From positions 1 through 64,000 of the IMG/VR virus record IMGVR_UViG_3300042518_001429: DNA of 64,000 bases, one strand, 5' to 3'. The notes under the pieces are model-generated. The model had not been told where the DNA came from, ran no database searches, and was given only the letters and a program-made list of their open reading frames with translations. Of this stretch, positions 108-38,599 are shown one piece after another (positions within the stretch are counted from its first letter, which is position 1; the number at the start of each line of letters is the position of its first letter). This stretch comes from a virus. The translations under genes and the position numbers were made by a program.

Positions 108-2012
108 ATGATTCATCAAGCTTACACTTACAATAATGCTATTCCGGGTAATACAACAGGACCGGTACAAGATCAGGCGTTTCCATCAACTACTTTATTA
201 GGGGCGTTTGTCTCCCGACTCCCATATGCTTATCAAATTTTGGACAGTTTAATGGAACGGAATCCTCGATTCCAAGACTTCCGTAAAGTAGCACCTAAGA
301 GAGAAGAGCTCATTCAAGATCAATCCGTCTTTTTAAATGACCCGGAATTGTCTTTTGGTTCCGGTCCCGGTACCCCAGGTGCTTTACAAATTAATAAAGA
401 CTACCAGGCCTTTATCTATGCTAATGTCGATAAGGATAAGACAAGACGTTTACAAGATTATCGCCGTATGGCAGCATTTGCAGAATTGGCTGATTGTATT
501 GACGAGATTTGCGATGAATGTATCGTTAAAGACGAGAATGATACCATTGTTCAGTTTAACTTAAGAGGCACTTATACCAAAGAGGTCAAAGATACAATTG
601 AAAAGGAATATAAGAAGTTTGTAGAGGTATTTGACTTAGAGGATAAGGGCTGGGAGTACTTCAGACAGTTTCTTATTGACGGGGAGTTATATTTTGAGAA
701 CATTATTGTAGAGGATAAGAAGGATCTAGGTATCATTGGTCTTGTTTCCATTCCTTCTGAACTTATCAATCCTGTTTATCAGAATGTTCAGAATGAATTA
801 GTCAAGGGCTTTTTAATTCGTAAGCCTGTTGTCGGTCCGGCTACATCGATGAATCGTAAGGATCAGGAAGAGCTATTCTTTATGAATAAGGCTCAGGTCA
901 CTTATATCAATTCTGGTATTTGGAATGAGTATAAGTCAATTCGTCTGCCCTTTATTGAAAATGCTAAAAGAGCTTATCGTCAGTTATCTCTTATTGAAGA
1001 TAGTATTGTTATCTATCGTCTTGTAAGAGCACCTGAGCGTCTAAGATTTACTATCTATACCGGTTCCATGCCGCCTCCCAAGGCTGAAGCTTATCTCAAG
1101 CGTCTCATGCAGTCTTATTGGTCAAAGAAGAACTATGACACCACACAAGGTTCAGGTGGAAGAGTTACTAACGTCTATGACCCACAGTCCATGCTTGATG
1201 CTTATTGGTTTACTAAAGACGCTCAAGGCAATGGCTCAACAGTAGATACCTTACCAGCAGGTCAGAACCTAGGACAGCTTGACGATCTCAATTACTTCCT
1301 TAAGAAGCTTTATAACTCTCTCAAAGTGCCTACCTCGCGCTTCATGCAGAATGATGTACCCTTTAAGGATGGTGCTGAGATTACAAGAGAAGAATTGAGA
1401 TTTGCTCGTTTCATTATTCGTATTCAGAGACAGTTTGCAATGGGTATTCGCGAGACCTTTATTGCACACCTGAAGATGAAGGGATTCTGGAAGCAGTATA
1501 GACTCCGTGAACGCTCTATTCAGTTAGAATTTAATGTTCCCACATCCTTCATGGCAATGAGGGACCAGCAGCTCTTACAGATCAAGTTTGATAATTTTAA
1601 TACTGCTACTCAGAACGCTTCTATCGCACCTTCTTATGCTCAGAAGTATTACATGCAGTGGTCTGATGAACAGATGAAAGAGAATAGAGAGTGGATTAAG
1701 AAGGATGCTGCTCTTCGTTGGGAACTAGCACAGATTGAAGGTTCAGGCCCTAACTGGAGAGAGCAGCTAGCAGCTCAGGCTGGCGTAGCACCAGAAGGTG
1801 GAGCAGCTCCTAGCGAGCTTGGCGGCGGTGGTGGCGGAAGTGCTGCAGGTGGTTCTGAGATTCCTGAGTTTGGCGGGTCAAGCGCGTCCCCAGAAGCAGG
1901 CGCTGAAGCTGGAGGAGCCGTAGGTGCTGAAGGCGGAGCAGGAGCTCCTCCAGAAGTAGGACCACCCACACAGGCAACCGGGGCTGGTACCCCAACACCA
2001 CCTCCAGCATAA
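108..2012 (+). CDS. 20: Portal protein, T4 gp20-like
   Basis: This is the dodecameric portal ring at the head vertex through which DNA is packaged and ejected. The protein has 634 residues (T4 gp20 has 524). It carries the typical gp20 core: the IDEICDECIV region, IEDSIVIYRLVRAPERLRF, and TLPAGQNLGQLDDLNYFLKKLY followed by KVPTSRF. The last ~80 residues are an unusual Gly/Ala/Pro-rich tail that probably explains most of the extra length. A TTAAATA box lies at 91-97, 10 nt before the ATG. In T4 the portal gene sits next to genes 21-23; here those genes are about 37 kb away on the other strand. Confidence 0.95.
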   Translation: MIHQAYTYNNAIPGNTTGPVQDQAFPSTTLLGAFVSRLPYAYQILDSLMERNPRFQDFRKVAPKREELIQDQSVFLNDPELSFGSGPGTPGALQINKDYQAFIYANVDKDKTRRLQDYRRMAAFAELADCIDEICDECIVKDENDTIVQFNLRGTYTKEVKDTIEKEYKKFVEVFDLEDKGWEYFRQFLIDGELYFENIIVEDKKDLGIIGLVSIPSELINPVYQNVQNELVKGFLIRKPVVGPATSMNRKDQEELFFMNKAQVTYINSGIWNEYKSIRLPFIENAKRAYRQLSLIEDSIVIYRLVRAPERLRFTIYTGSMPPPKAEAYLKRLMQSYWSKKNYDTTQGSGGRVTNVYDPQSMLDAYWFTKDAQGNGSTVDTLPAGQNLGQLDDLNYFLKKLYNSLKVPTSRFMQNDVPFKDGAEITREELRFARFIIRIQRQFAMGIRETFIAHLKMKGFWKQYRLRERSIQLEFNVPTSFMAMRDQQLLQIKFDNFNTATQNASIAPSYAQKYYMQWSDEQMKENREWIKKDAALRWELAQIEGSGPNWREQLAAQAGVAPEGGAAPSELGGGGGGSAAGGSEIPEFGGSSASPEAGAEAGGAVGAEGGAGAPPEVGPPTQATGAGTPTPPPA

Positions 2013-2769: not shown

Positions 2770-3351
2770 ATGTCTGATTGTTTTTTTAACTACACTACTG
2801 CAACTGATCTTGTTACCTATTCTACAAATATAGGCGACGGGATTAATAATGTTTTTACTGTACCACACAATCTAGGTACTAAAGATGTTTCGGTTACAGT
2901 TAGAGATACACAGACCAATCTTTTAGCTTACCCGGCTATTGAAGTCATTACTTTAAGCTCGGTTAGTGTTTCGTTTAATTTTGTTCCTACTTTAACTGCT
3001 TATGACGTTACTATATTTGCAGCTGCTTCTGCAATTAGAGTCGAACCATTTACAGATCGGGTTGTTATTAACATTGATGAACAGCCAGCTCAGAACGTAA
3101 CTGTCAGTGTTAGCAGTGTTGGAGACAATGTAAATGTAAATGTTATAGACTTTTTATCTCAGTGGGGATCTATTATAGGCACGATATCTGCTCAAACTGA
3201 TCTCTGGGCTTATCTTTCTTCGGATAGCGATTTTCAAACTCTGTCTTATACTCCTTCTTCTATCCAAATTTCTATATCTAACGGCAACACAATTACTTTA
3301 GATAACTTAATAACTAAAACCCAGGCCCTTGCCTACTCAATTGCTCTATAA
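2770..3351 (+). CDS. Virion/tail protein with a fibre-type beta domain
   Basis: 193 residues. Residues ~20-100 hold a pattern common in phage fibre proteins: IGDGINNVFTVPHNLGTKDV, then VTVRD, and a closing ...PTLTAYDVTIFAA strand. The C-terminal half contains VSVSSVGDNVNVNVIDFLSQW and a Ser/Thr-rich end. A structural role is inferred from composition and neighbours; the specific part of the tail is not known. No box or Shine-Dalgarno sequence is clear in the 4-nt gap before it, so it may be translated from the upstream transcript. Confidence 0.65.
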   Translation: MSDCFFNYTTATDLVTYSTNIGDGINNVFTVPHNLGTKDVSVTVRDTQTNLLAYPAIEVITLSSVSVSFNFVPTLTAYDVTIFAAASAIRVEPFTDRVVINIDEQPAQNVTVSVSSVGDNVNVNVIDFLSQWGSIIGTISAQTDLWAYLSSDSDFQTLSYTPSSIQISISNGNTITLDNLITKTQALAYSIAL

Positions 3352-3354
3352 ATA
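3347..3354 (+). promoter_or_regulatory. Perfect TATAAATA late promoter box
   Basis: Exact T4 late consensus TATAAATA. It overlaps the stop codon of the upstream gene and ends 7 nt before the GTG start at 3362. Confidence 0.6.
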
Positions 3355-3361
3355 TTAAACA

Positions 3362-4381
3362 GTGAAGACTCTTGTAACAAATTATACATTTTCAGCCAGT
3401 GCAAAGCAAATTACACTTACAAACTACCCGTCTTTAAGGCTTGATCAGATTCTTCTTATAACCAACGTTACCGATAATGTTATAATTTATAATTTTGCTG
3501 ATCCTACAGCAGGTGGTACTCTTGCAGGAAATGTTCTTACTTTGTTGTATAACACTACCTCAATGTCAGATAGTGACCGGTTACAAATCTTTATTGATGA
3601 TTATACAGTACCTGCTACCGAAGCTTCTCTTACCGCAGTACAAGTTAAAATAGATAATACTAATGTTTTATTAAATGCTTTAACTGCTAAACAAGACACT
3701 TTTAACTTTGATATATCTTCGGTTAATGTAAATACAAATGAACTTGAAGGTTTAACAAGAACTGTTAATGCTAGTATTACAGCAACAAATAACAATTTAG
3801 TAACTTTTAATAGACAGCTTACAGGTCAAGTTTTAGCTTTTAATAATCAATTATCAGGTCAGGTACAAACTTTAAACACCCAGTTAACTGGGCAGCTCTT
3901 TACAATAAATCAAAATGTAAGTTCTACTAATCCCAGACTTTCTAGTATAGATACAAAGCTAACAACTCTTATAAATCAAACTGATGGCATAGAAGGCTCA
4001 GTAGATCAAATTGAAGGTTATATTAATGATGTTGAAAGTACTTTAACAAGTATTAGTAATAACACCATATATTTAAACTCTGCTGAATTCAGTCAAACTG
4101 TATCTCAATTAACAAGTAGTGTTTATATAGGGGAAGGAAGAATTTTTAGTATACAGGGTATTTCTTATGCTGGTTACGATCAGTACCTGCAAATTGAAGA
4201 TGCACCACAAGGCCCTGGAAGTCGTTTTACTCAATTAATAAAAGCAAATGAAAATTTTAATATTGAGTTTTCGAAAGGCTTTTACGGTGAAAATTTATAT
4301 GTTAGAAATAGTTTAACTCCAGTGACCCATACACCCGGTAATAATGATATAATGTTGACAGTGCATTGGCGAGGGATATAA
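3362..4381 (+). CDS. Trimeric-fibre-like protein with coiled-coil middle
   Basis: 339 residues starting with GTG. The first ~90 residues are beta-rich (KTLVTNYTFSASAKQITLTNYPS...). Residues ~95-250 form a long helical stretch with short repeats such as NRQLTGQVLAFNNQLSGQV and NTQLTGQLF, typical of a trimeric coiled coil. The last ~90 residues look globular (IFSIQGISYAGYDQYLQIED... LTVHWRGI). It probably acts as a tail or collar fibre. The name is inferred from shape only. Confidence 0.65.
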   Translation: MKTLVTNYTFSASAKQITLTNYPSLRLDQILLITNVTDNVIIYNFADPTAGGTLAGNVLTLLYNTTSMSDSDRLQIFIDDYTVPATEASLTAVQVKIDNTNVLLNALTAKQDTFNFDISSVNVNTNELEGLTRTVNASITATNNNLVTFNRQLTGQVLAFNNQLSGQVQTLNTQLTGQLFTINQNVSSTNPRLSSIDTKLTTLINQTDGIEGSVDQIEGYINDVESTLTSISNNTIYLNSAEFSQTVSQLTSSVYIGEGRIFSIQGISYAGYDQYLQIEDAPQGPGSRFTQLIKANENFNIEFSKGFYGENLYVRNSLTPVTHTPGNNDIMLTVHWRGI

Positions 4382-5008: not shown

Positions 5009-6451
5009 ATGAACGACTCAAGATTATTTACAGACAGTGAATTAAGCCAACCTTTGCCTCCTATTTATAAGGGCAAGGATATAACTATTTGGCCTGGTCA
5101 GCTTGCCCAGTACCCTGCACATGGAAATAGAGGCATTAACGGGAGTTATATGTTAAAACAAGGCAGACCTAGAAGATCAGCTTTACGAAGATATGTTTTT
5201 AGATATGAAGGGGGCAAATTTGTTTATTTGGCTACAAGAAAAGGTCAAAGAAATGGAGGCTTTACTAGTAAAAATGCTGGCACTAATTTAAAAATACAAT
5301 TTAACGTTACTAATCAAGGAGAGTTGTTTAATTCTAATTTTACTTTTCGAGGCAAGAATACAGCTGGTGAAGACGTATGGTCTACTGGGCCTTTAAATCA
5401 GTTTCGTTATGACAGTGCAAATAGTAGATGGGTTTGGGAAACAGCTCCTGCCCCTGCAGCTGGTGCCCCTATGCCTGCTCTTAGCGCTAATGGTTTTTCC
5501 TCTTCAACAACAAACACTCTACCTAATGCAGGAACTATAAACGAGGTGTCTTGGACTTATATTTCTAATCCCTATACTACTCAAACACCTCAATTACCAG
5601 CTACCCTTGTTGCTACACCTATACAGTGGTATAACAACAATGACATAGAAAATCTTAACAAATGGCCTATTAAAAATAAAGATATGAACTATGGAGTTAG
5701 AAAGCATATGTTCTATCATAGATGGCAAGAACTAGACTATGATTATATAGAAGGCGTAAGATTTGATGGCTGGGATTATGGAAACGGTTTGTATATTAGA
5801 CAAGATAGAAATTCTAATTATTTTTATAGAGTAACAAGCATTGGCCCCAATATAGGCATGACTCTTTCTCAAGATGATTATCTTTACTGGGACAATACTC
5901 AGTGGTGTTTATATAATCAAACGGAAGTAGGAGGAGATTGTATTACTAATAATAATACACCTCAGATGTCAATGCATAATAATGATGGTGGACAACTATG
6001 GACTGATAATGGCTATGGTCTAGGTACAGCTTCAAAGCACTATGCCGTTAAACCTGAAGGTAGACCAGATTGTCTTACAGATGATTATCTTAATAAATGC
6101 TTTGCAGGAGTTAACCTTAAACACTATGATACAGTCTTTGTTGAAGTTATGTGGAAATTTGTTTCTAATAAAAATTATAAAAGAGGGGTAAATTATTTTG
6201 ATTCTGGTCTTTGGAATGTAGACTCCTATAAAGGTATGCTAAATTTTGGTATACCTCTTGACCAAATAAGTGATATGGATTGGTGGACACCTAGACCTTT
6301 TAGAACAAAAAGTAATAAAGGGAGAGTTTATAGAATAGGTATACTAGAAGAAGATACTGGTGTTGGCGGGTATGATAAAGTACTTTGGTGTCAAAGAACT
6401 AAAACAATTACTACTAAATATGATAGAGGAGGACATACAGCATTAGAATAA
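5009..6451 (+). CDS. Large aromatic-rich virion protein; possible 5' exon of a ribozyme-split gene
   Basis: 480 residues with many Trp, Tyr, Asn and Gly. A basic segment (MLKQGRPRRSALRRYVFRYEGG) comes early, and a later part is dense in aromatic residues (YYRWQELDYDY-like, WDYGNGLYIRQDRNSNYF). The reading frame ends with GGHTALE and a stop only ~20 nt before a group I ribozyme core. One reading is that this is a complete gene. The other is that it is the first exon of a longer protein continued at about 6742-9435, with the stop contributed by intron sequence. I cannot place the splice sites, so both remain open. Function is probably fibre or decoration. Confidence 0.65.
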   Translation: MNDSRLFTDSELSQPLPPIYKGKDITIWPGQLAQYPAHGNRGINGSYMLKQGRPRRSALRRYVFRYEGGKFVYLATRKGQRNGGFTSKNAGTNLKIQFNVTNQGELFNSNFTFRGKNTAGEDVWSTGPLNQFRYDSANSRWVWETAPAPAAGAPMPALSANGFSSSTTNTLPNAGTINEVSWTYISNPYTTQTPQLPATLVATPIQWYNNNDIENLNKWPIKNKDMNYGVRKHMFYHRWQELDYDYIEGVRFDGWDYGNGLYIRQDRNSNYFYRVTSIGPNIGMTLSQDDYLYWDNTQWCLYNQTEVGGDCITNNNTPQMSMHNNDGGQLWTDNGYGLGTASKHYAVKPEGRPDCLTDDYLNKCFAGVNLKHYDTVFVEVMWKFVSNKNYKRGVNYFDSGLWNVDSYKGMLNFGIPLDQISDMDWWTPRPFRTKSNKGRVYRIGILEEDTGVGGYDKVLWCQRTKTITTKYDRGGHTALE

Positions 6452-6470
6452 AATAATATAAACAAACAAA

Positions 6471-6710
6471 GGCCCTAATCGGATGAATTCGGGGAAACCT
6501 TCCTCTGCGTTGTAGAGATGGCAATCCCGAGCCAAGCCATAAACCATTTTATGGAAGGTGTAGAGACTACTGGAGACAAAAAGGTTTGTCTTAATAACCA
6601 GCAAGAGCGTCCGACAAATAAAAAATATTTGAAGATATAGTCCAACCTGTAGTGAAAACTATAGAACATGTTGCGACGCCAGTACTTTATATAACAAGCC
6701 ACGCGAGTGG
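6471..6710 (-). other. Placeholder for strand check: no feature on the minus strand here
   Basis: Nothing coding or RNA-like is supported on the minus strand of this stretch. The real element is the plus-strand ribozyme entry at the same position. Confidence 0.05.
6471..6710 (+). ncRNA. Group I intron (ribozyme) core without an endonuclease gene
   Basis: The paired elements of a group I ribozyme can be drawn in order. A candidate guide GGCCCT lies at 6471-6476. P3 is TCGGATG (6479-6485) with CGTCCGA (6608-6614). P4 is TCGGG (6489-6493) with CCCGA (6526-6530), preceded by the diagnostic GGCAAT and followed by GCCAAGCC. P6a is CCATAAA with TTTATGG. P7 is GACTA (6565-6569) with TAGTC (6638-6642, within GATATAGTCC). 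P8 is CAAATA (6615-6620) with TATTTG (6626-6631). P9 is CTGTAG (6647-6652) with CTATAG (6659-6664), and a GCGA-capped hairpin sits at 6699-6710. A CTGG/CCAG pair enclosing an AGACAAA/TTTGTCT stem between P7 and P3 fits P7.1/P7.2 of subgroup IA. Exact splice sites are not resolved. Confidence 0.85.
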
Positions 6711-6741
6711 GCAGGCTCGGTTCACAAGGGTCAAACAACAT

Positions 6742-9435
6742 ATGCCATACACAAGAGAATCAGGCTATCTACAGAACATGGTCGAAAATGGAATTACGTT
6801 TTCTGACCGTGATAGAGATGCTGTAGAAAAATTACGAGTATCTAATCCGCAAAGTCTTATCGATACAGACTTTGAGTATTCTTTGCAAAATACAAAATGG
6901 GAATTCTTAACTCTCTGTAATAACTATCCAGGGGTATATGCAAGAGCTAATGAACCAGCATTTACTTCAAATCAAATAACTTCTATACTACCCTCAGGCA
7001 TTGGTAATAGATCAGTAACTGTAACAGTAAATGAATTGCCTCGTTCTCCTTTCAAAATAGGGGATTCTGTAGTGTTAAAAGAAACAGCTAACACCACTTA
7101 CGTAGATGGGGCTTATATTATAACAGCAGTATTATCTCAATATTCTTTTCAAGTAGTTACTAAATCTCCTGCAGCATTAGTAGGTGATCAAAAAACGCAA
7201 TATACTGCACTCTACACTGGTGGCTTCTATACAAATGCCAATATACCTATTGTTGGTGTATCTTCAATTGCTGGAACGAGTGCAGCGTTAATTCAATTTG
7301 CAAACCCTCATAACCTTTATATAGGAACCCCTCTCACAGTGGTTGACTATAGACTATCAGCTGTTCCTTGGTCGGGTAGTTTTGAAGTATCTGCGGTAAG
7401 AGATGATTATAGAGTTATCTATCAGACTTTAACTGGTTCTAATTATTCAACATCAACTCTATTAGTGCCTGCAACAGGGGCAGTATATGCCAGAACCGAA
7501 GGTGTAGCGGTTCATAGATTCTTTGACGGTGGTGTACAAATTAATCCAGGTACCTCAGCTCCTAATGCTCGCATAATGCGTCAAACCAGAAAGTACTTTA
7601 AGTATCAGTCTGGTAAATCAATGCAATTTTCAACCGGTGTCTTGTTTAGACCGGTTTATGAAGTTACTAATGCTTATATTGACAAAACCCTTTATACTGC
7701 TAATTCTGCCACCTACCCTTACTACGACTTCGTTATATCAACAGAACAATATCATGGCTTTGCTGCTCCTGACTCCCATAAACAAGGGGTAACCATAAAA
7801 ACATTTGGCTTTGTATTATCTTCAAATGAAACTAATCCATATAATAAGACATTTGTTGTTAATAAAGTTTTAAATTCTAAAACCTTTAGTGTACAAATTC
7901 CGGTAAATGCTCAATTTAATCCTTTCCCAACAACAGACTTATCTCCCGGTGGTATTGCTTACGTGGAAGTACAAAATTGGAATGATGCCACAGTAAGAAC
8001 AGGTCTTTTTGATGATCAGAACGGAATGTTTTTTGAATATGATGGTAAACAATTTTATGCTGTAAAACGACAAACTACAACACCTCTAGCAGGAACAGTA
8101 AGAGTTGTAAATGGTTCTCCTTGGATTGTAAGTAGTGATGGATTTACTAAGTTTAAAACACAATTAGACGAAAATAATTTTATATCAATACAAGGAATGT
8201 CTTATCAGGTAGGATCAATTGTTAATAATTTATCAGCTACTGTAACCCCTGTTTATCGTGGTCAGAATGCTACAGGTTTAAAAGTTATAAAAACAGAAGA
8301 ATTGAGAATACCTCAATCTGAATTTAATCTTGATAAACTTGATGGCGCAGGGCCTTCTGGTTATGTACTCAATCTCAATAAAATGCAGATGATGTTTATT
8401 GATTACTCCTGGTACGGTGCCGGGAAGATCCGTTATGGTATCAGAGCTGTAAATGGTAAGATAATTTACTTTCACGAAATTTATAATAACAACGTAAATA
8501 TTAAGGCTCACATGCGTTCAGGTAACCTTCCCGGACGTTTTGAAATATCTAGTATTTCAAAGACCGGTACCTTCCTAACAGCTATAAGTTCAAACTCTAC
8601 ATCAGGTTTAATATCTCAAACCGACGCTAATATGCTACCACCTAAAGGCCGTATTGTTATAAATAACGAATACATAAACTATACAAAAGGTAGCACACAA
8701 TCAGGAGGAATAGTTCTAAACTTTAATCAAAGAAATGTCGGGGGTTTAACCTCAGGTGCTAAAAATCATAATGCTGGGGATCAATATGCTTCTTATAATC
8801 AAAACTGTTCACCTGCTTTAAGTCACTGGGGTGTAGCAGCGTTGATGGACGGAGAGTTTAACGAGGATAAGTCTTATCTTTTTACGGGGTCTAATCAAAC
8901 CTCCCTAACTGCAATGTCAGCAGATAAAGCTTTATTGTCTGTTCGTCTAGCACCTTCTGTTGACTATGGTATTATAGGTAAACTCGGTGAAAGAAGCTTA
9001 GTAAATCATTCCACCCTTAAACCACAAACTATAGGCATTGTCACTAACAATCCCTTACAAATTAATGTAAGAGTTAATTGCGAGCCACAAACTTTATTTA
9101 AGAATTTATCAGCCTGGAATTTTGTAGCCAATGGAAGTATAGCACAATACTATGACCATTCTGTTGATGGTTCGTTTGAAGTGGAGGGCACCGGTGGAGA
9201 TCTCATTGCTTCGTTCTTTGTATCTCCGGAGTCTCCTATTAATTCTAACTATCAAACATGCAAAGACTTTAACATTGAAGTTGTACGAGAGTTAACAAAC
9301 AGTATTCTCGGCGGGGATTTCCCTTTTCCGGATGGCCCCGACGTCGTAACAATTAGTGTCAAAACATTAGATGGCGGTTTAAACTATAATGCTGTATGTC
9401 GGGCTAGAATGTCTTGGACTGAAGATCAAGGCTAA
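6742..9435 (+). CDS. Very large virion fibre/structural protein
   Basis: 897 residues if the ATG at 6742 (MPYTRESGYL) is used; an AAGGG lies 11 nt before it. The frame is open further upstream into the ribozyme, so translation could also run through from an upstream exon after splicing. Near the N-terminus KLRVSNPQSLIDTDFEYSLQNTKWEFLT is a motif I associate with large phage structural proteins. Residues ~290-630 hold a domain also present in the minus-strand protein at 32216-34186: YQSGKS, GLFDDQNGMFFEYDG, DKLDGAGPSGYVLNL and a closing LPGRFEIS. The role is probably fibre or baseplate periphery. Confidence 0.7.
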   Translation: MPYTRESGYLQNMVENGITFSDRDRDAVEKLRVSNPQSLIDTDFEYSLQNTKWEFLTLCNNYPGVYARANEPAFTSNQITSILPSGIGNRSVTVTVNELPRSPFKIGDSVVLKETANTTYVDGAYIITAVLSQYSFQVVTKSPAALVGDQKTQYTALYTGGFYTNANIPIVGVSSIAGTSAALIQFANPHNLYIGTPLTVVDYRLSAVPWSGSFEVSAVRDDYRVIYQTLTGSNYSTSTLLVPATGAVYARTEGVAVHRFFDGGVQINPGTSAPNARIMRQTRKYFKYQSGKSMQFSTGVLFRPVYEVTNAYIDKTLYTANSATYPYYDFVISTEQYHGFAAPDSHKQGVTIKTFGFVLSSNETNPYNKTFVVNKVLNSKTFSVQIPVNAQFNPFPTTDLSPGGIAYVEVQNWNDATVRTGLFDDQNGMFFEYDGKQFYAVKRQTTTPLAGTVRVVNGSPWIVSSDGFTKFKTQLDENNFISIQGMSYQVGSIVNNLSATVTPVYRGQNATGLKVIKTEELRIPQSEFNLDKLDGAGPSGYVLNLNKMQMMFIDYSWYGAGKIRYGIRAVNGKIIYFHEIYNNNVNIKAHMRSGNLPGRFEISSISKTGTFLTAISSNSTSGLISQTDANMLPPKGRIVINNEYINYTKGSTQSGGIVLNFNQRNVGGLTSGAKNHNAGDQYASYNQNCSPALSHWGVAALMDGEFNEDKSYLFTGSNQTSLTAMSADKALLSVRLAPSVDYGIIGKLGERSLVNHSTLKPQTIGIVTNNPLQINVRVNCEPQTLFKNLSAWNFVANGSIAQYYDHSVDGSFEVEGTGGDLIASFFVSPESPINSNYQTCKDFNIEVVRELTNSILGGDFPFPDGPDVVTISVKTLDGGLNYNAVCRARMSWTEDQG

Positions 9436-18148: not shown

Positions 18149-19438
18149 ATGACATTTATCTTAACATTAATGCTCTTGGGAGCCGTTGCCGGAGCTGTAT
18201 ATTTCTACCAGCAAGGACAGGGCTGTCAACAGCAAGTAATACTTCTTCAAGAACAAATAGAAGCTTATAAAGTTAATTCAGCTCCTTTACAAGAACAAGT
18301 AACAGAGCTTAAGAAGCAAAACGAAGAACTTACTTCTTATAAAGTTACTTTACTTCAAGAGTGCGCCCGTTTGGAAGAACGTAATAAAGCATTACAAGAC
18401 CAGATTGAAGTTGTCACAGATATTACAACTCAGCTCGAGAAGCATACAGCACAGGCTATTAAGGATCAGTATTTGGCCTCTCAAGACCAATCTGTCCAGA
18501 CTTTAAAGTATGCTTTAGATCCAATCCAAGATCAGCTTAATACCCTCAGACAGCACGTCTCTGAGACCGCAGACCGTGAGACTCAGGCCCGGTCATCGCT
18601 TCTCAATTCAATTGAAGAATTACAGAAGTATCAGACAGACTTCTCTGAACGGGCTCGGGACTTAGTATCAGCTCTCACTGGACAGAATAGAGCACAAGGT
18701 GATTGGGGTGAAATGGTATTGCAGACTCTCCTTGAGACTTCCGGGCTCATTGAAGGGGTTCACTTCACCGTTCAAGGACATGCAAGGAATGACGAGGGTA
18801 CAGCTTATCGCCCGGACGTCGTGGTGCAGTTCCCTGATAACAAGAACGTAATTATTGACTCAAAAGTATCTTTGGTTTCGTTTATGCGTTTAATGAATGC
18901 TACAAGTTCTGCTGATCAGAAGGCAGCCGAGAAGGATCTCATGATGTCTATTAAGCTTCATATTGATGGTCTTTCAAATAAGAACTATGAAGACTTGTAT
19001 CCATTCGGAATTGACTTTGTAATGTTATTTGTTCCTGTAGAAGGTGCTTATATGCAGATTATGCAACTGGATCCTTCCATCTGGCAGTATGCTTATAAGA
19101 AGCGCATTGTGCTTATGTCTCCTACGTCCCTTATTCCTGCATTGCGGATGGTACATCACATCTGGCAAAGAGATGGACAGCAGAAGATGGCCGATAAGAT
19201 TGTTAAAGAGGCTTCTAACTTCTATGATAAGATTGCCGGGTTCTGTGATTCGTTTGTCAATATTGGAGATGCCCTTGAGAAGGCTTCTTCGGCATTCGGG
19301 AAAGCTAAGACTCAATTGTCAGAAGGTAAGGGCAATTTAATTCAGAGAGCCGAGCAATTCAAACAGCTCCACCTCCAACCTAAGAAGAAGATTGATGAAA
19401 GTTTATTACTGCAAAATTCATTTGAAGAGGCAGCATAA
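18149..19438 (+). CDS. rmuC: RmuC-family protein
   Basis: 429 residues, the usual size for RmuC. An N-terminal TM helix (FILTLMLLGAVAGAVYFYQQ) is followed by a long coiled coil (~25-185) and a RmuC domain: GDWGEMVLQTLLETSGL, GTAYRPDVVVQFPDNKNVIIDSK, DFVMLFVPVEGAYMQIM and KRIVLMSPTSLIPALRMV. In E. coli RmuC limits inversions at short inverted repeats, and the domain has a nuclease-like fold. Here the family's D...DSK residues are present. A phage copy inside a lysis operon is unusual. Possible roles are cleavage of host DNA, recombination control or counter-defence; none can be chosen from sequence. Confidence 0.9.
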   Translation: MTFILTLMLLGAVAGAVYFYQQGQGCQQQVILLQEQIEAYKVNSAPLQEQVTELKKQNEELTSYKVTLLQECARLEERNKALQDQIEVVTDITTQLEKHTAQAIKDQYLASQDQSVQTLKYALDPIQDQLNTLRQHVSETADRETQARSSLLNSIEELQKYQTDFSERARDLVSALTGQNRAQGDWGEMVLQTLLETSGLIEGVHFTVQGHARNDEGTAYRPDVVVQFPDNKNVIIDSKVSLVSFMRLMNATSSADQKAAEKDLMMSIKLHIDGLSNKNYEDLYPFGIDFVMLFVPVEGAYMQIMQLDPSIWQYAYKKRIVLMSPTSLIPALRMVHHIWQRDGQQKMADKIVKEASNFYDKIAGFCDSFVNIGDALEKASSAFGKAKTQLSEGKGNLIQRAEQFKQLHLQPKKKIDESLLLQNSFEEAA

Positions 19439-23424: not shown

Positions 23425-23872
23425 TGGAGGTGAGGGGAGTTGAACCCCTGTCCAAATAATTTGCTCTAAAAGGTCTACATGTTTTAGTATCTTTAGCATT
23501 TCAGCCACCATACGGTGACGAAGACTTTAGGCTGCTTGGCGATACTAACCGAGTTTTTAGTCTGCCTATAGACATTAGCGCACATCTACATACGGAGGAT
23601 TCTTTTTGTTACGTTGATACAGTCCACAATTCAACAACCTCTATAATCAAAGTATCCTTAGAGGATCTGGATACTAGGGTTTAGGCTGCCATTAAGCAGT
23701 AGTTTTCTTCAGGAGCGAAGAATTCTACTACATTAGACCAAGCGGACTTAACAGCTTCAACAGCAGAGGTAATAGCCTTTGCGTTTAGTTTTTAATCGAT
23801 TTTAACGAGGCCATCGATCAACCTCGACATGCACTTTTAGTCTCAACTATCTGTCGAAACCGGTACACCCCC
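23425..23872 (-). ncRNA. ssrA: Transfer-messenger RNA (tmRNA), one-piece
   Basis: tmRNA frees stalled ribosomes and adds a degradation tag. The 5' end GGGGGTGTACCGGTTTCGACAG (in short: GGGGGTG then GGTTTCGACA) is canonical. The 7-bp acceptor pairs GGGGGTG with CACCTCC (23426-23432), followed by A; CCA is not encoded. The T arm reads GGGGTTCAACTCCCC. Pseudoknot 1 can be drawn as CGAGG/CCTCG with ATCGAT/ATCGAT, followed by an A-rich stretch and CGCAAAG, as in E. coli. The tag frame runs from the resume codon GCA (23782-23780) to TAA (23683-23681). It encodes 33 residues, starts AKAITSAVEAV and ends FFAPEENYCLMAA, similar to the ...ENYALAA end of E. coli but much longer. Confidence 0.95.
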
Positions 23873-23889: not shown

Positions 23890-24525
23890 TTAAAGCCTAT
23901 ACAATACTTTTGTCAGAGCATTGTGTAAGCTATTAACCCCTCTAATTGTAGAACGAATTAGAGTTCTATACCAGCTAAATTTTCTTAGAAACGATACAAT
24001 TCTTCTTGAGAGCTTTTTATTCTCTATGGCTCTTTTTTCAGCCCAGAGCTTGTTATTTTTAATTCTTTCGCTAATCGGGTCTTTAGAGACTTTAATAAGT
24101 TTAATATCATCAAGCTTACCTTTGGTGAAATAGGCTTCAAACTCAAACCACCAATCATAACCCTGAATTAATTCAATATCATCCCAGGACATTTGCTCCG
24201 GGTCATCGCTAATCCAATCCCAATGATAATCATTATTGTCGGTATGAGTAGTATAGAAGTTAATTGTACCGTGAAAATCAACATCTCTCCATTCTTCTTT
24301 AATAACTTCAAAATACCCTTTTAAGAAAGCACTATCATCGTCTCTCCATTCTCTTTCTTGCCAGAGATGACGAAGTTTACCGGATTTAGTAATCTCGTAA
24401 GCATCTAAAGCGTTGTCTAAATCTTTAGTCTGAAAGTCTATTTCTTCCCAATTAACATTGAGAGCTTTAAGCTCTTTAGTTAATGGAAGCTTCTTTTTTA
24501 CGTAGAGATGATCGAACATACCCAT
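23890..24525 (-). CDS. Conserved phage protein, MGMFD family
   Basis: 211 residues. The start MGMFDHLYVKKKLPL followed by FQTKDLDNALDAYEIT and GKLRHLW belongs to a type of protein I know from large phages and some bacteria; no function is established to my knowledge. The middle is rich in Asp, Trp and His (HTDNNDYHWDWISDDPEQ, GYDWWFEFEAYF). The basic C-terminus (SRRIVSFLRKFSWYRTLIR) may be membrane- or nucleic-acid-binding. It has its own sigma70-like promoter. Confidence 0.65.
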   Translation of the reverse strand: MGMFDHLYVKKKLPLTKELKALNVNWEEIDFQTKDLDNALDAYEITKSGKLRHLWQEREWRDDDSAFLKGYFEVIKEEWRDVDFHGTINFYTTHTDNNDYHWDWISDDPEQMSWDDIELIQGYDWWFEFEAYFTKGKLDDIKLIKVSKDPISERIKNNKLWAEKRAIENKKLSRRIVSFLRKFSWYRTLIRSTIRGVNSLHNALTKVLYRL

Positions 24526-37150: not shown

Positions 37151-38599
37151 TTAGAGGTATGTAGCTGCTTGACCAGGTACGAACGATTGGCCCAAGCCGG
37201 TGCAGATTACCATGTGATAGTAAAGTGAAGCACCGAAGATGTGGTCAACAACACCATAACGTGTTAATAGACCTACTCTTGGACTGAAATCGTTAGGACC
37301 GATTGTGCGCTGAACCATGACAGGGATATATGGGCAGTATACGATACCTGTATCGTAGTACTCAGGGCCCTTATAACCTAACAGAGCATAGTCAACAGTT
37401 GCTGCGCGGCCTGCGGCGTAGCCAGCATTAGCGTAACTTTGTGTTGATTGTGCTTCTGTGCGTGTGTCACGATAGATTTGGAAACGGCCACCAACTGAAC
37501 CAACCTTGGCGATGCCAACAGGTGCTGTGTTAACAGAGCCTGTTACGGGCTGCCAGGTGAAGTTAGGAAGTGTTTCGAGGATTGCGCAGATACGTGGTGT
37601 AGCGATGATGAAGTTAGCAGCGCCACGACGGTTGCGAACAGCAACGCGGTTTGCTTCAACAACAATTCTGTTGTAGAAGTCACGGGCACGCTCACCTGAC
37701 CAACGGCCGTCAGCTGAGATAGCTGACCATGTTGAATAGCCAACGCCAGCGCCAGCATTCAAGCATGTTTGGATCATACGAGCAATCATTTCACGGTCGA
37801 TCTCAGCTTGAATTTCATATGACATAGCATTTGTTAATTCAGCATCGATGTCGATACCGTTCATGTTTCTTAAATCTTGTTCGAGTTCAACGGACCACTT
37901 AGCTGCGAGACGGCGTGTACCGGCTTCAACTGCGGTCTTTTCAAACGAAACAGTTACTTGAGGAATGTTTGAAGTTAATTCAAACTGTGAGAGAAGGGCT
38001 GCAACACCTGAATCTTCACCAACAACCGCGAAGGCTGAGTTACCGGAAAGAGCTGCACTGGATACACCTGTGAAGGATGTATTCAGGTAGTTATAACCGA
38101 TTTCTTTGCCTGTTACGTTTGCTTGGTTGTAGATTGAGTTAGCGGCTAAGCCGGAAGAATTACCGTCTGAACCGTTACTTGATGTGCCAAGTGCTGAACC
38201 TTCATACTTGTAGCGCATTGCGAATGCTAAGCCAACAGGACCAGTCATAGGCTGTACACCAACGATCTCATTTGTGATGAGCTCAGGGAATGTACGGCGA
38301 ATCATTGGGATGAGGACTTTTGGCAGACGTGCGTCACCAGTTGCGTAGGTATCGCGGTTAGGTACTGCGCCACCGTTGACATTTAAATTGCCACCTGTAG
38401 CACTAAATACTGAACCGTTACCAGCTACGTTTGATGCTTCAAAGCACCACTTTTCTTGGTTCTCAAGAAGGATAGCGGTGTTCAAGCGTGTGTGTTCGTC
38501 TGAGATAGCTGCAACTTTGTCTGAAGTGTAATCCAATACTGGAGTCCACTTCTCAACTAAAGCTTCAGCTCTCGATTTATCGATATGTAGAAGTTCCAT
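37151..38599 (-). CDS. 23: Major capsid protein, T4 gp23-like
   Basis: 482 residues (T4 gp23 521). The N-terminal helix (ALVEKWTPVLDYTSDKV), RLNTAILLENQEKWCFE and VGVQPMTGPVGLAFAMRYKYEG are typical of gp23. Later TAVEAGTRRLAAKWSVELEQDLRNMNGIDIDAELTNAMSYEIQAEIDREMI (described, residues ~220-275) contains the conserved region with the axial helix. The protein forms the HK97-fold shell and would be processed by the gp21 protease. It has the only strong Shine-Dalgarno in the head module, AAGGAG (38613-38618), 13 nt before the ATG, and a strong terminator, fitting very high expression. Confidence 0.95.
   Translation of the reverse strand: MELLHIDKSRAEALVEKWTPVLDYTSDKVAAISDEHTRLNTAILLENQEKWCFEASNVAGNGSVFSATGGNLNVNGGAVPNRDTYATGDARLPKVLIPMIRRTFPELITNEIVGVQPMTGPVGLAFAMRYKYEGSALGTSSNGSDGNSSGLAANSIYNQANVTGKEIGYNYLNTSFTGVSSAALSGNSAFAVVGEDSGVAALLSQFELTSNIPQVTVSFEKTAVEAGTRRLAAKWSVELEQDLRNMNGIDIDAELTNAMSYEIQAEIDREMIARMIQTCLNAGAGVGYSTWSAISADGRWSGERARDFYNRIVVEANRVAVRNRRGAANFIIATPRICAILETLPNFTWQPVTGSVNTAPVGIAKVGSVGGRFQIYRDTRTEAQSTQSYANAGYAAGRAATVDYALLGYKGPEYYDTGIVYCPYIPVMVQRTIGPNDFSPRVGLLTRYGVVDHIFGASLYYHMVICTGLGQSFVPGQAATYL

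Follow-up and report, generated by a model that had tools for sequence, protein, structure and literature searches.

The 64,000-base stretch of DNA analysed here (hereafter the window), which comprises bases 1–64000 of a 91,891-base virus record (91.9 kb), holds a real, phage-encoded tmRNA and places it in an apparently undescribed viral family whose tags are about three times the usual length. The kind of molecule was already known; the long-tag family is new. Many uncultured phages have this one long tag in common, and its extra part is kept as protein more than the degron is. On balance, we judge the window gene to encode a functional trans-translation RNA of a distant T4-like phage, with a 33-residue tag that probably combines an amphipathic helix with an LMAA degron.

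The phage genome and its tmRNA gene

Alongside a T4-type portal and a gp23 major capsid protein (Table 1), a scaffold-like protein is encoded within the window. Portal and capsid are only ~28–34% identical to those of named phages among the best matches listed, which marks this as a distant T4-like phage without a close isolate. A prophage within, or a fragment of, a host tmRNA gene was ruled out by the completeness of the tmRNA gene and its location within a T4-like genome; cyanophage identity was unsupported, a psbA-type gene being absent from 21 phage records. The tmRNA gene starts 17 bases downstream of a gene for a 211-aa protein (23890–24525, minus strand), which adjoins the tmRNA on its upstream side in the window and in seven related loci and for which a family search returned no match. 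No tRNA genes were called in the window by ARAGORN; among more distant relatives, the tmRNA lies near tRNA genes in L166, L193, L204, L212, L225 and L232. The window also carries a group I intron (6435–6664, plus strand; RF00028, 77.7 bits) between open reading frames at 5009–6451 and 6652–9435, and a gene for an RmuC-family protein (18149–19438, plus strand; PF02646, E = 3e-88), matches to which were present in only seven of 50,697 records in the phage collection.

The initial annotation had described a complete one-piece tmRNA with acceptor stem, T arm and PK1, and had proposed a covariance search as a check. Using cmscan, Rfam model RF00023 was matched over its full length (1–374 of 374) to 23872–23422 on the minus strand with 137.4 bits, against a gathering score of 47, and E = 1.1e-53, a full-length one-piece match that rules out a two-piece (permuted) tmRNA. 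The coordinates given initially are those of the exact gene without CCA, to which we add the strand, minus, that had been missing. CCA is not encoded in the window, where CUU comes next, and is encoded in many relatives. ARAGORN, which has been employed in published phage surveys (PMC7162821; PMC9004378), missed this gene and skips many of its relatives, revealing a detection gap.

In a hand-drawn structure comprising the acceptor, T stem, H2, PK1, PK2, PK3, PK4 and P5, all 77 of 77 window pairs were standard. To assess covariation, 35 related phage tmRNAs were aligned, and pairing in the structure hand-read from the window sequence was compared with that of slid-partner controls. The acceptor, T stem, H2a, H2b and PK1 were 90–100% paired (versus 28–65% when slid) and the distal elements 65 to 93% paired (PK2a, PK3, PK4b and P5 among the weaker ones), percentages that are biased towards the structure because it was taken from one aligned sequence. 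Two-sided changes are better evidence for the fold: PK1b had them at six of seven pairs (93% paired versus 28% slid), H2b at 5/7, the T stem at 4/5 and PK1a at 3/5, with some two-sided changes also arising in the slid controls for H2b, H2c, PK2a and PK3. Taken with the full-length model match and the standard pairing, covariation in most helices bears out the fold originally described.

Table 1. Positions of phage structural genes and of the parts of the tmRNA gene in the window.
Feature	Position	Strand	Basis or remark
T4-type portal	108–2012	+	phrog_213
gp23 major capsid protein	37151–38599	-	PF07068
tmRNA gene, one-piece, 448 nt without CCA	23425..23872 (5' end 23872)	-	RF00023; ends by comparison with relatives
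Acceptor stem, 5' strand GGGGGUG	23866..23872	-	cmscan, structure alignment
PK1 (CGAGG/CCUCG + GAUCGAU/AUCGAUU)	23794..23826	-	covariation, 35 relatives
Resume site, UAAAC then GCA	23780..23787	-	TA + GCA invariant in 86 loci; A86 rule (PMC2481249)
Tag CDS, 33 codons, AKAITSAVEAVKSAWSNVVEFFAPEENYCLMAA	23684..23782	-	translation; alignment with phage family
Tag stop codon UAA	23681..23683	-	
PK2 (GUAUCC/GGAUAC + CCUCU/AGAGG)	23638..23674	-	structure alignment; ends hand-counted
PK3–PK4 region, in part without Rfam model match	23483..23637	-	cmscan, structure alignment
Long H2 helix, 3' strand	23450..23482	-	structure alignment; ends hand-counted
T arm, canonical loop UUCAACU	23433..23449	-	cmscan, relatives' alignment
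Acceptor stem, 3' strand CACCUCC + discriminator A	23425..23432	-	G3-U70 pair

The tRNA-like domain occurs as three linked types among the 35 relatives: type A, with a canonical T loop (19/35, or 20 if a sequence whose start is offset is included); type B, with a UAUCRUA loop and an altered 5' side (11/35); and type C, with a GGCAGMA loop (3/35). Non-canonical T loops were recorded in L121, L123, L160, L172, L190, L196, L203, L204, L220 and L225, and in L016, L182 and L199; L192 combines features of types B and A. Domain types can differ between near-identical tmRNA bodies, as in L173 and L172, whose tags are the same. To judge from the alignment, a non-canonical T loop is accompanied by corresponding changes in the 5' part of the domain, a pattern that resembles exchange of the entire domain as a module between tmRNAs that are nearly identical elsewhere. 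None of 388 Verrucomicrobiota genomes contained the 5' motif of type B. In L180, a type A member, a group I intron sits at the T loop (3325–3559, plus strand; 83 bits), and it is our guess that the non-canonical T loops of relatives are intron-resistant.

The tag and its viral relatives

The 33-residue frame proposed at the outset is real. Preceded by UAAAC, which provides the canonical UA-N3 context, GCA serves as resume codon and opens 33 codons that finish in LMAA before the stop UAA, an open frame with a hydrophobic degron that aligns with those of the phage family. The frame is set in E. coli mainly by A86, which lies four bases ahead of the resume codon (PMC2481249). All 86 related loci have the U-A at -5/-4 and the GCA, although locus extraction required the UA context and a GC-starting codon, so that only the third codon base and the near-complete yield count as independent evidence. 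Degron ends among these loci are LLAA in 47, ALAA in 29 and LMAA in four. The cysteine that had been read as replacing the first alanine of ALAA does no such thing: alignment with relatives puts L-M-A-A at the tail and the cysteine just before it, in a variable stretch outside the degron core.

Searching with an alignment of tags returned 118 viral hits with conserved tags, of which 80 were kept. The 86 loci, which include some overlapping copies of one contig, gave 47 distinct tags with the consensus AEDNTSDLLAEAEYIFNNADEFLAGVEEEYLLAA and lengths of 32 (6 tags), 33 (13), 34 (13) or 35 (15) residues. Loci found without using the tag, through the neighbour gene, the 5' tmRNA pattern, the portal or a PK4 pattern, carried tags of 33–35 residues, all of one family. 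The window tag keeps consensus residues T5, A10, N17, E20, L30, A32 and A33 at 27–39% protein identity to its relatives, and is matched by the tag profile with E = 1.5e-11, the window itself being among the profile's sequences.

Among 84,980 bacterial and archaeal species, 243 pattern hits included no relative of the tag, in a scan of exact peptide patterns that strongly divergent bacterial tags could escape. Neither a DNA nor a tag match to the window tmRNA was present among 50,697 phage records, and no relative of the tag was found in the PDB. Three DNA patterns for further window-type tags yielded no tmRNA; their sole match, L445, lies within a long open frame that has many amphipathic repeats. 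Occurrence of the same tag in Verrucomicrobiota was rejected, 388 genomes giving a single weak match (E = 0.006) within a 164-aa open frame, as was copying of the tag from another protein, for which the collected loci gave nothing convincing. Three tmRNA-like loci on viral contigs (L109, L107 and L070) carry unrelated long tags of 30, 31 and 33 residues, which suggests multiple origins of long tags.

The commonest tag length in the tmRNA database is 10, among 97,179 sequences of which 79 are from phages (PMC11915505). According to ARAGORN calls, a few of them possibly wrong and from a sample partly picked for long genes, tags have nine residues in 52 of the 69 called in Verrucomicrobiota and range from 9 to 33 residues in Chlamydiota (72 called). 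A length of 33 is extreme, not unique: of the initial description as exceptionally long, the extreme length stands, but 32–35 residues are normal within the phage family and Chlamydiota reach 33.

The 5' end and PK1 pattern of the phage family matched 39 loci in bacteria, of which 35 have titles naming Verrucomicrobia or Chlamydiae groups, so that the signature GGGGRUGUANUGGUUUCGAC is nearly confined to these phyla; in its place the window has UGUACCGG, one base different. The nearest tmRNA ends compared are mostly from Verrucomicrobiota and Chlamydiota (0.60–0.68 identity), in a comparison for which few outside comparators passed extraction. This distribution of the signature and the Chlamydiota tags of up to 33 residues would suit an ordinary tmRNA from a long-tagged host lineage of Verrucomicrobiota/Chlamydiota type, with the extension inherited and only the last residues at work. 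We regard such an origin as unlikely, because the extension is the tag's more conserved part and is selected as protein, because the tag sequence had no bacterial match in our scans, and because RmuC appears to point away from these phyla, the window protein being ~34% identical to a Salmonella protein and 23–25% identical to those of PVC-type and other genomes tried.

Selection on the extension and possible roles of the helix

Selection was gauged in 11 relatives retrieved without the tag, with the extension defined as alignment columns 2–22 and pN/pS calculated from pairwise uncorrected distances as a descriptive measure, with no formal test. Over the extension (~20 residues), pS was 0.52 and pN 0.13, giving a pN/pS of 0.24 in the tag frame, whereas the two remaining frames had 1.35 and 2.15; low in the tag frame alone, the ratio indicates that the extension is kept as protein, beyond a role as RNA or spacer, and is in line, for the relatives, with the initial suggestion that the extra residues could add a function. 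The C-terminal degron part had a pN/pS of 0.44; judged by these distances, purifying selection in the relatives is stronger on the extension than on the degron. The window tag is itself a divergent single sequence, and the selection measured here pertains to its relatives. Its DNA is 45–56% identical to that of relatives versus 74–94% (5' part) and 72–91% (3' part) for the tmRNA body, so the tag segment, far more diverged than the RNA around it, was either replaced or is fast-evolving, with length, frame and amphipathicity kept.

Divergence of this order would also be seen if ribosome release (or SmpB titration) alone mattered and the window tag were drifting, its sequence unimportant, and the tag peptide is indeed dispensable in some E. 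coli phage growth assays (PMC2481249). That account seems very unlikely to us, given that the window retains frame, length, amphipathicity and the LMAA end and that the whole tag is under purifying selection in relatives.

A helix, suggested initially as one use of the extra residues, fits the window tag, which is amphipathic and predicted to be helical at residues 2–22. The window tag had a helix moment of 0.41, where shuffled versions averaged 0.17 (P = 0.004), and consensus tags had moments of 0.34–0.35 (P = 0.02–0.04), with segment choice uncorrected in both cases. AlphaFold placed the helix at 2–22 (block pLDDT 81 and 79) and left the tail poorly defined, in a model of modest confidence overall (mean pLDDT 69.5, pTM 0.35). 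Being amphipathic and partly hydrophobic in the window and in relatives, such a helix might sequester tagged proteins or redirect them to the membrane or to some other site, instead of leading to their destruction. Membrane-surface helices are typically not acidic, unlike the consensus tag helices, which are acidic and not basic, and degron-like ends (LLAA, ALAA, LMAA) are retained in nearly all 86 loci; redirection is improbable on these grounds.

On our preferred reading of a functional trans-translation RNA bearing helix and degron, the tmRNA would be charged by the host alanyl-tRNA synthetase, G3-U70 being the alanine charging signal, and would be loaded, together with host SmpB, which trans-translation requires, onto ribosomes stalled during infection. 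The 33-residue tag would then be added, with its ~20-residue amphipathic helix followed by a short C-terminal degron and the LMAA end. ClpX recognises LAA-type ends at the C terminus, and the most likely role of the degron would be to deliver tagged fragments to a host protease of ClpXP type. For the helix, the most likely role would be that of a further recognition element that binds an adaptor, unfoldase or alternative protease of the host, with tagged products cleared in a phage-specified way. A private phage SmpB or ClpP is unsupported: 21 phage records yielded no SmpB gene, which is no proof of absence because every record may be a fragment, and ClpP-like genes were present in only two of the 21. 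Host factors are therefore expected, and host SmpB is probably used by the phage tmRNA.

More tentatively, these molecules may form a phage-specific tmRNA family whose conserved amphipathic helix, not found in the bacterial tags searched, binds a host or phage partner and puts the products of rescue under phage control. Conservation of the extension at the protein level opens the function of tags in phage tmRNAs to a direct reporter test.

Comparison with known tmRNAs

With the bacterial one-piece tmRNA (RF00023), the window molecule shares the G3-U70 acceptor, the T arm, H2 and PK1–PK4, as well as the GCA resume codon after UA-N3 and a degron-like end; it differs in a gene of 448 nt without CCA and in a tag of 33 residues where 10 is commonest (PMC11915505). 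Phage-encoded tmRNAs are known from mycobacteriophage Bxz1 and its relatives and from Bacillus phage G (PMC4131195), and the OM43 phage Melnitz, a myophage with replication genes described as T4-like, has a two-piece tmRNA (PMC9004378). All have, like the window phage, a tmRNA gene inside the phage genome, but that of Melnitz is in two pieces and that of the window phage in one. The tag of the Mesoplasma florum tmRNA is read by that organism's own Lon (PMC9097571), so tags are able to bear a separate protease specificity; it thereby offers a precedent for a long tag with a protease specificity of its own, although its sequence is different and the phage tag has a putative partner only. Chlamydiota tmRNAs resemble the phage molecules in their long genes, in tags of up to 33 residues and in the common 5' signature, but their tags are unrelated in sequence and diverse between species, whereas the phage family has one conserved, predicted helix-forming tag.
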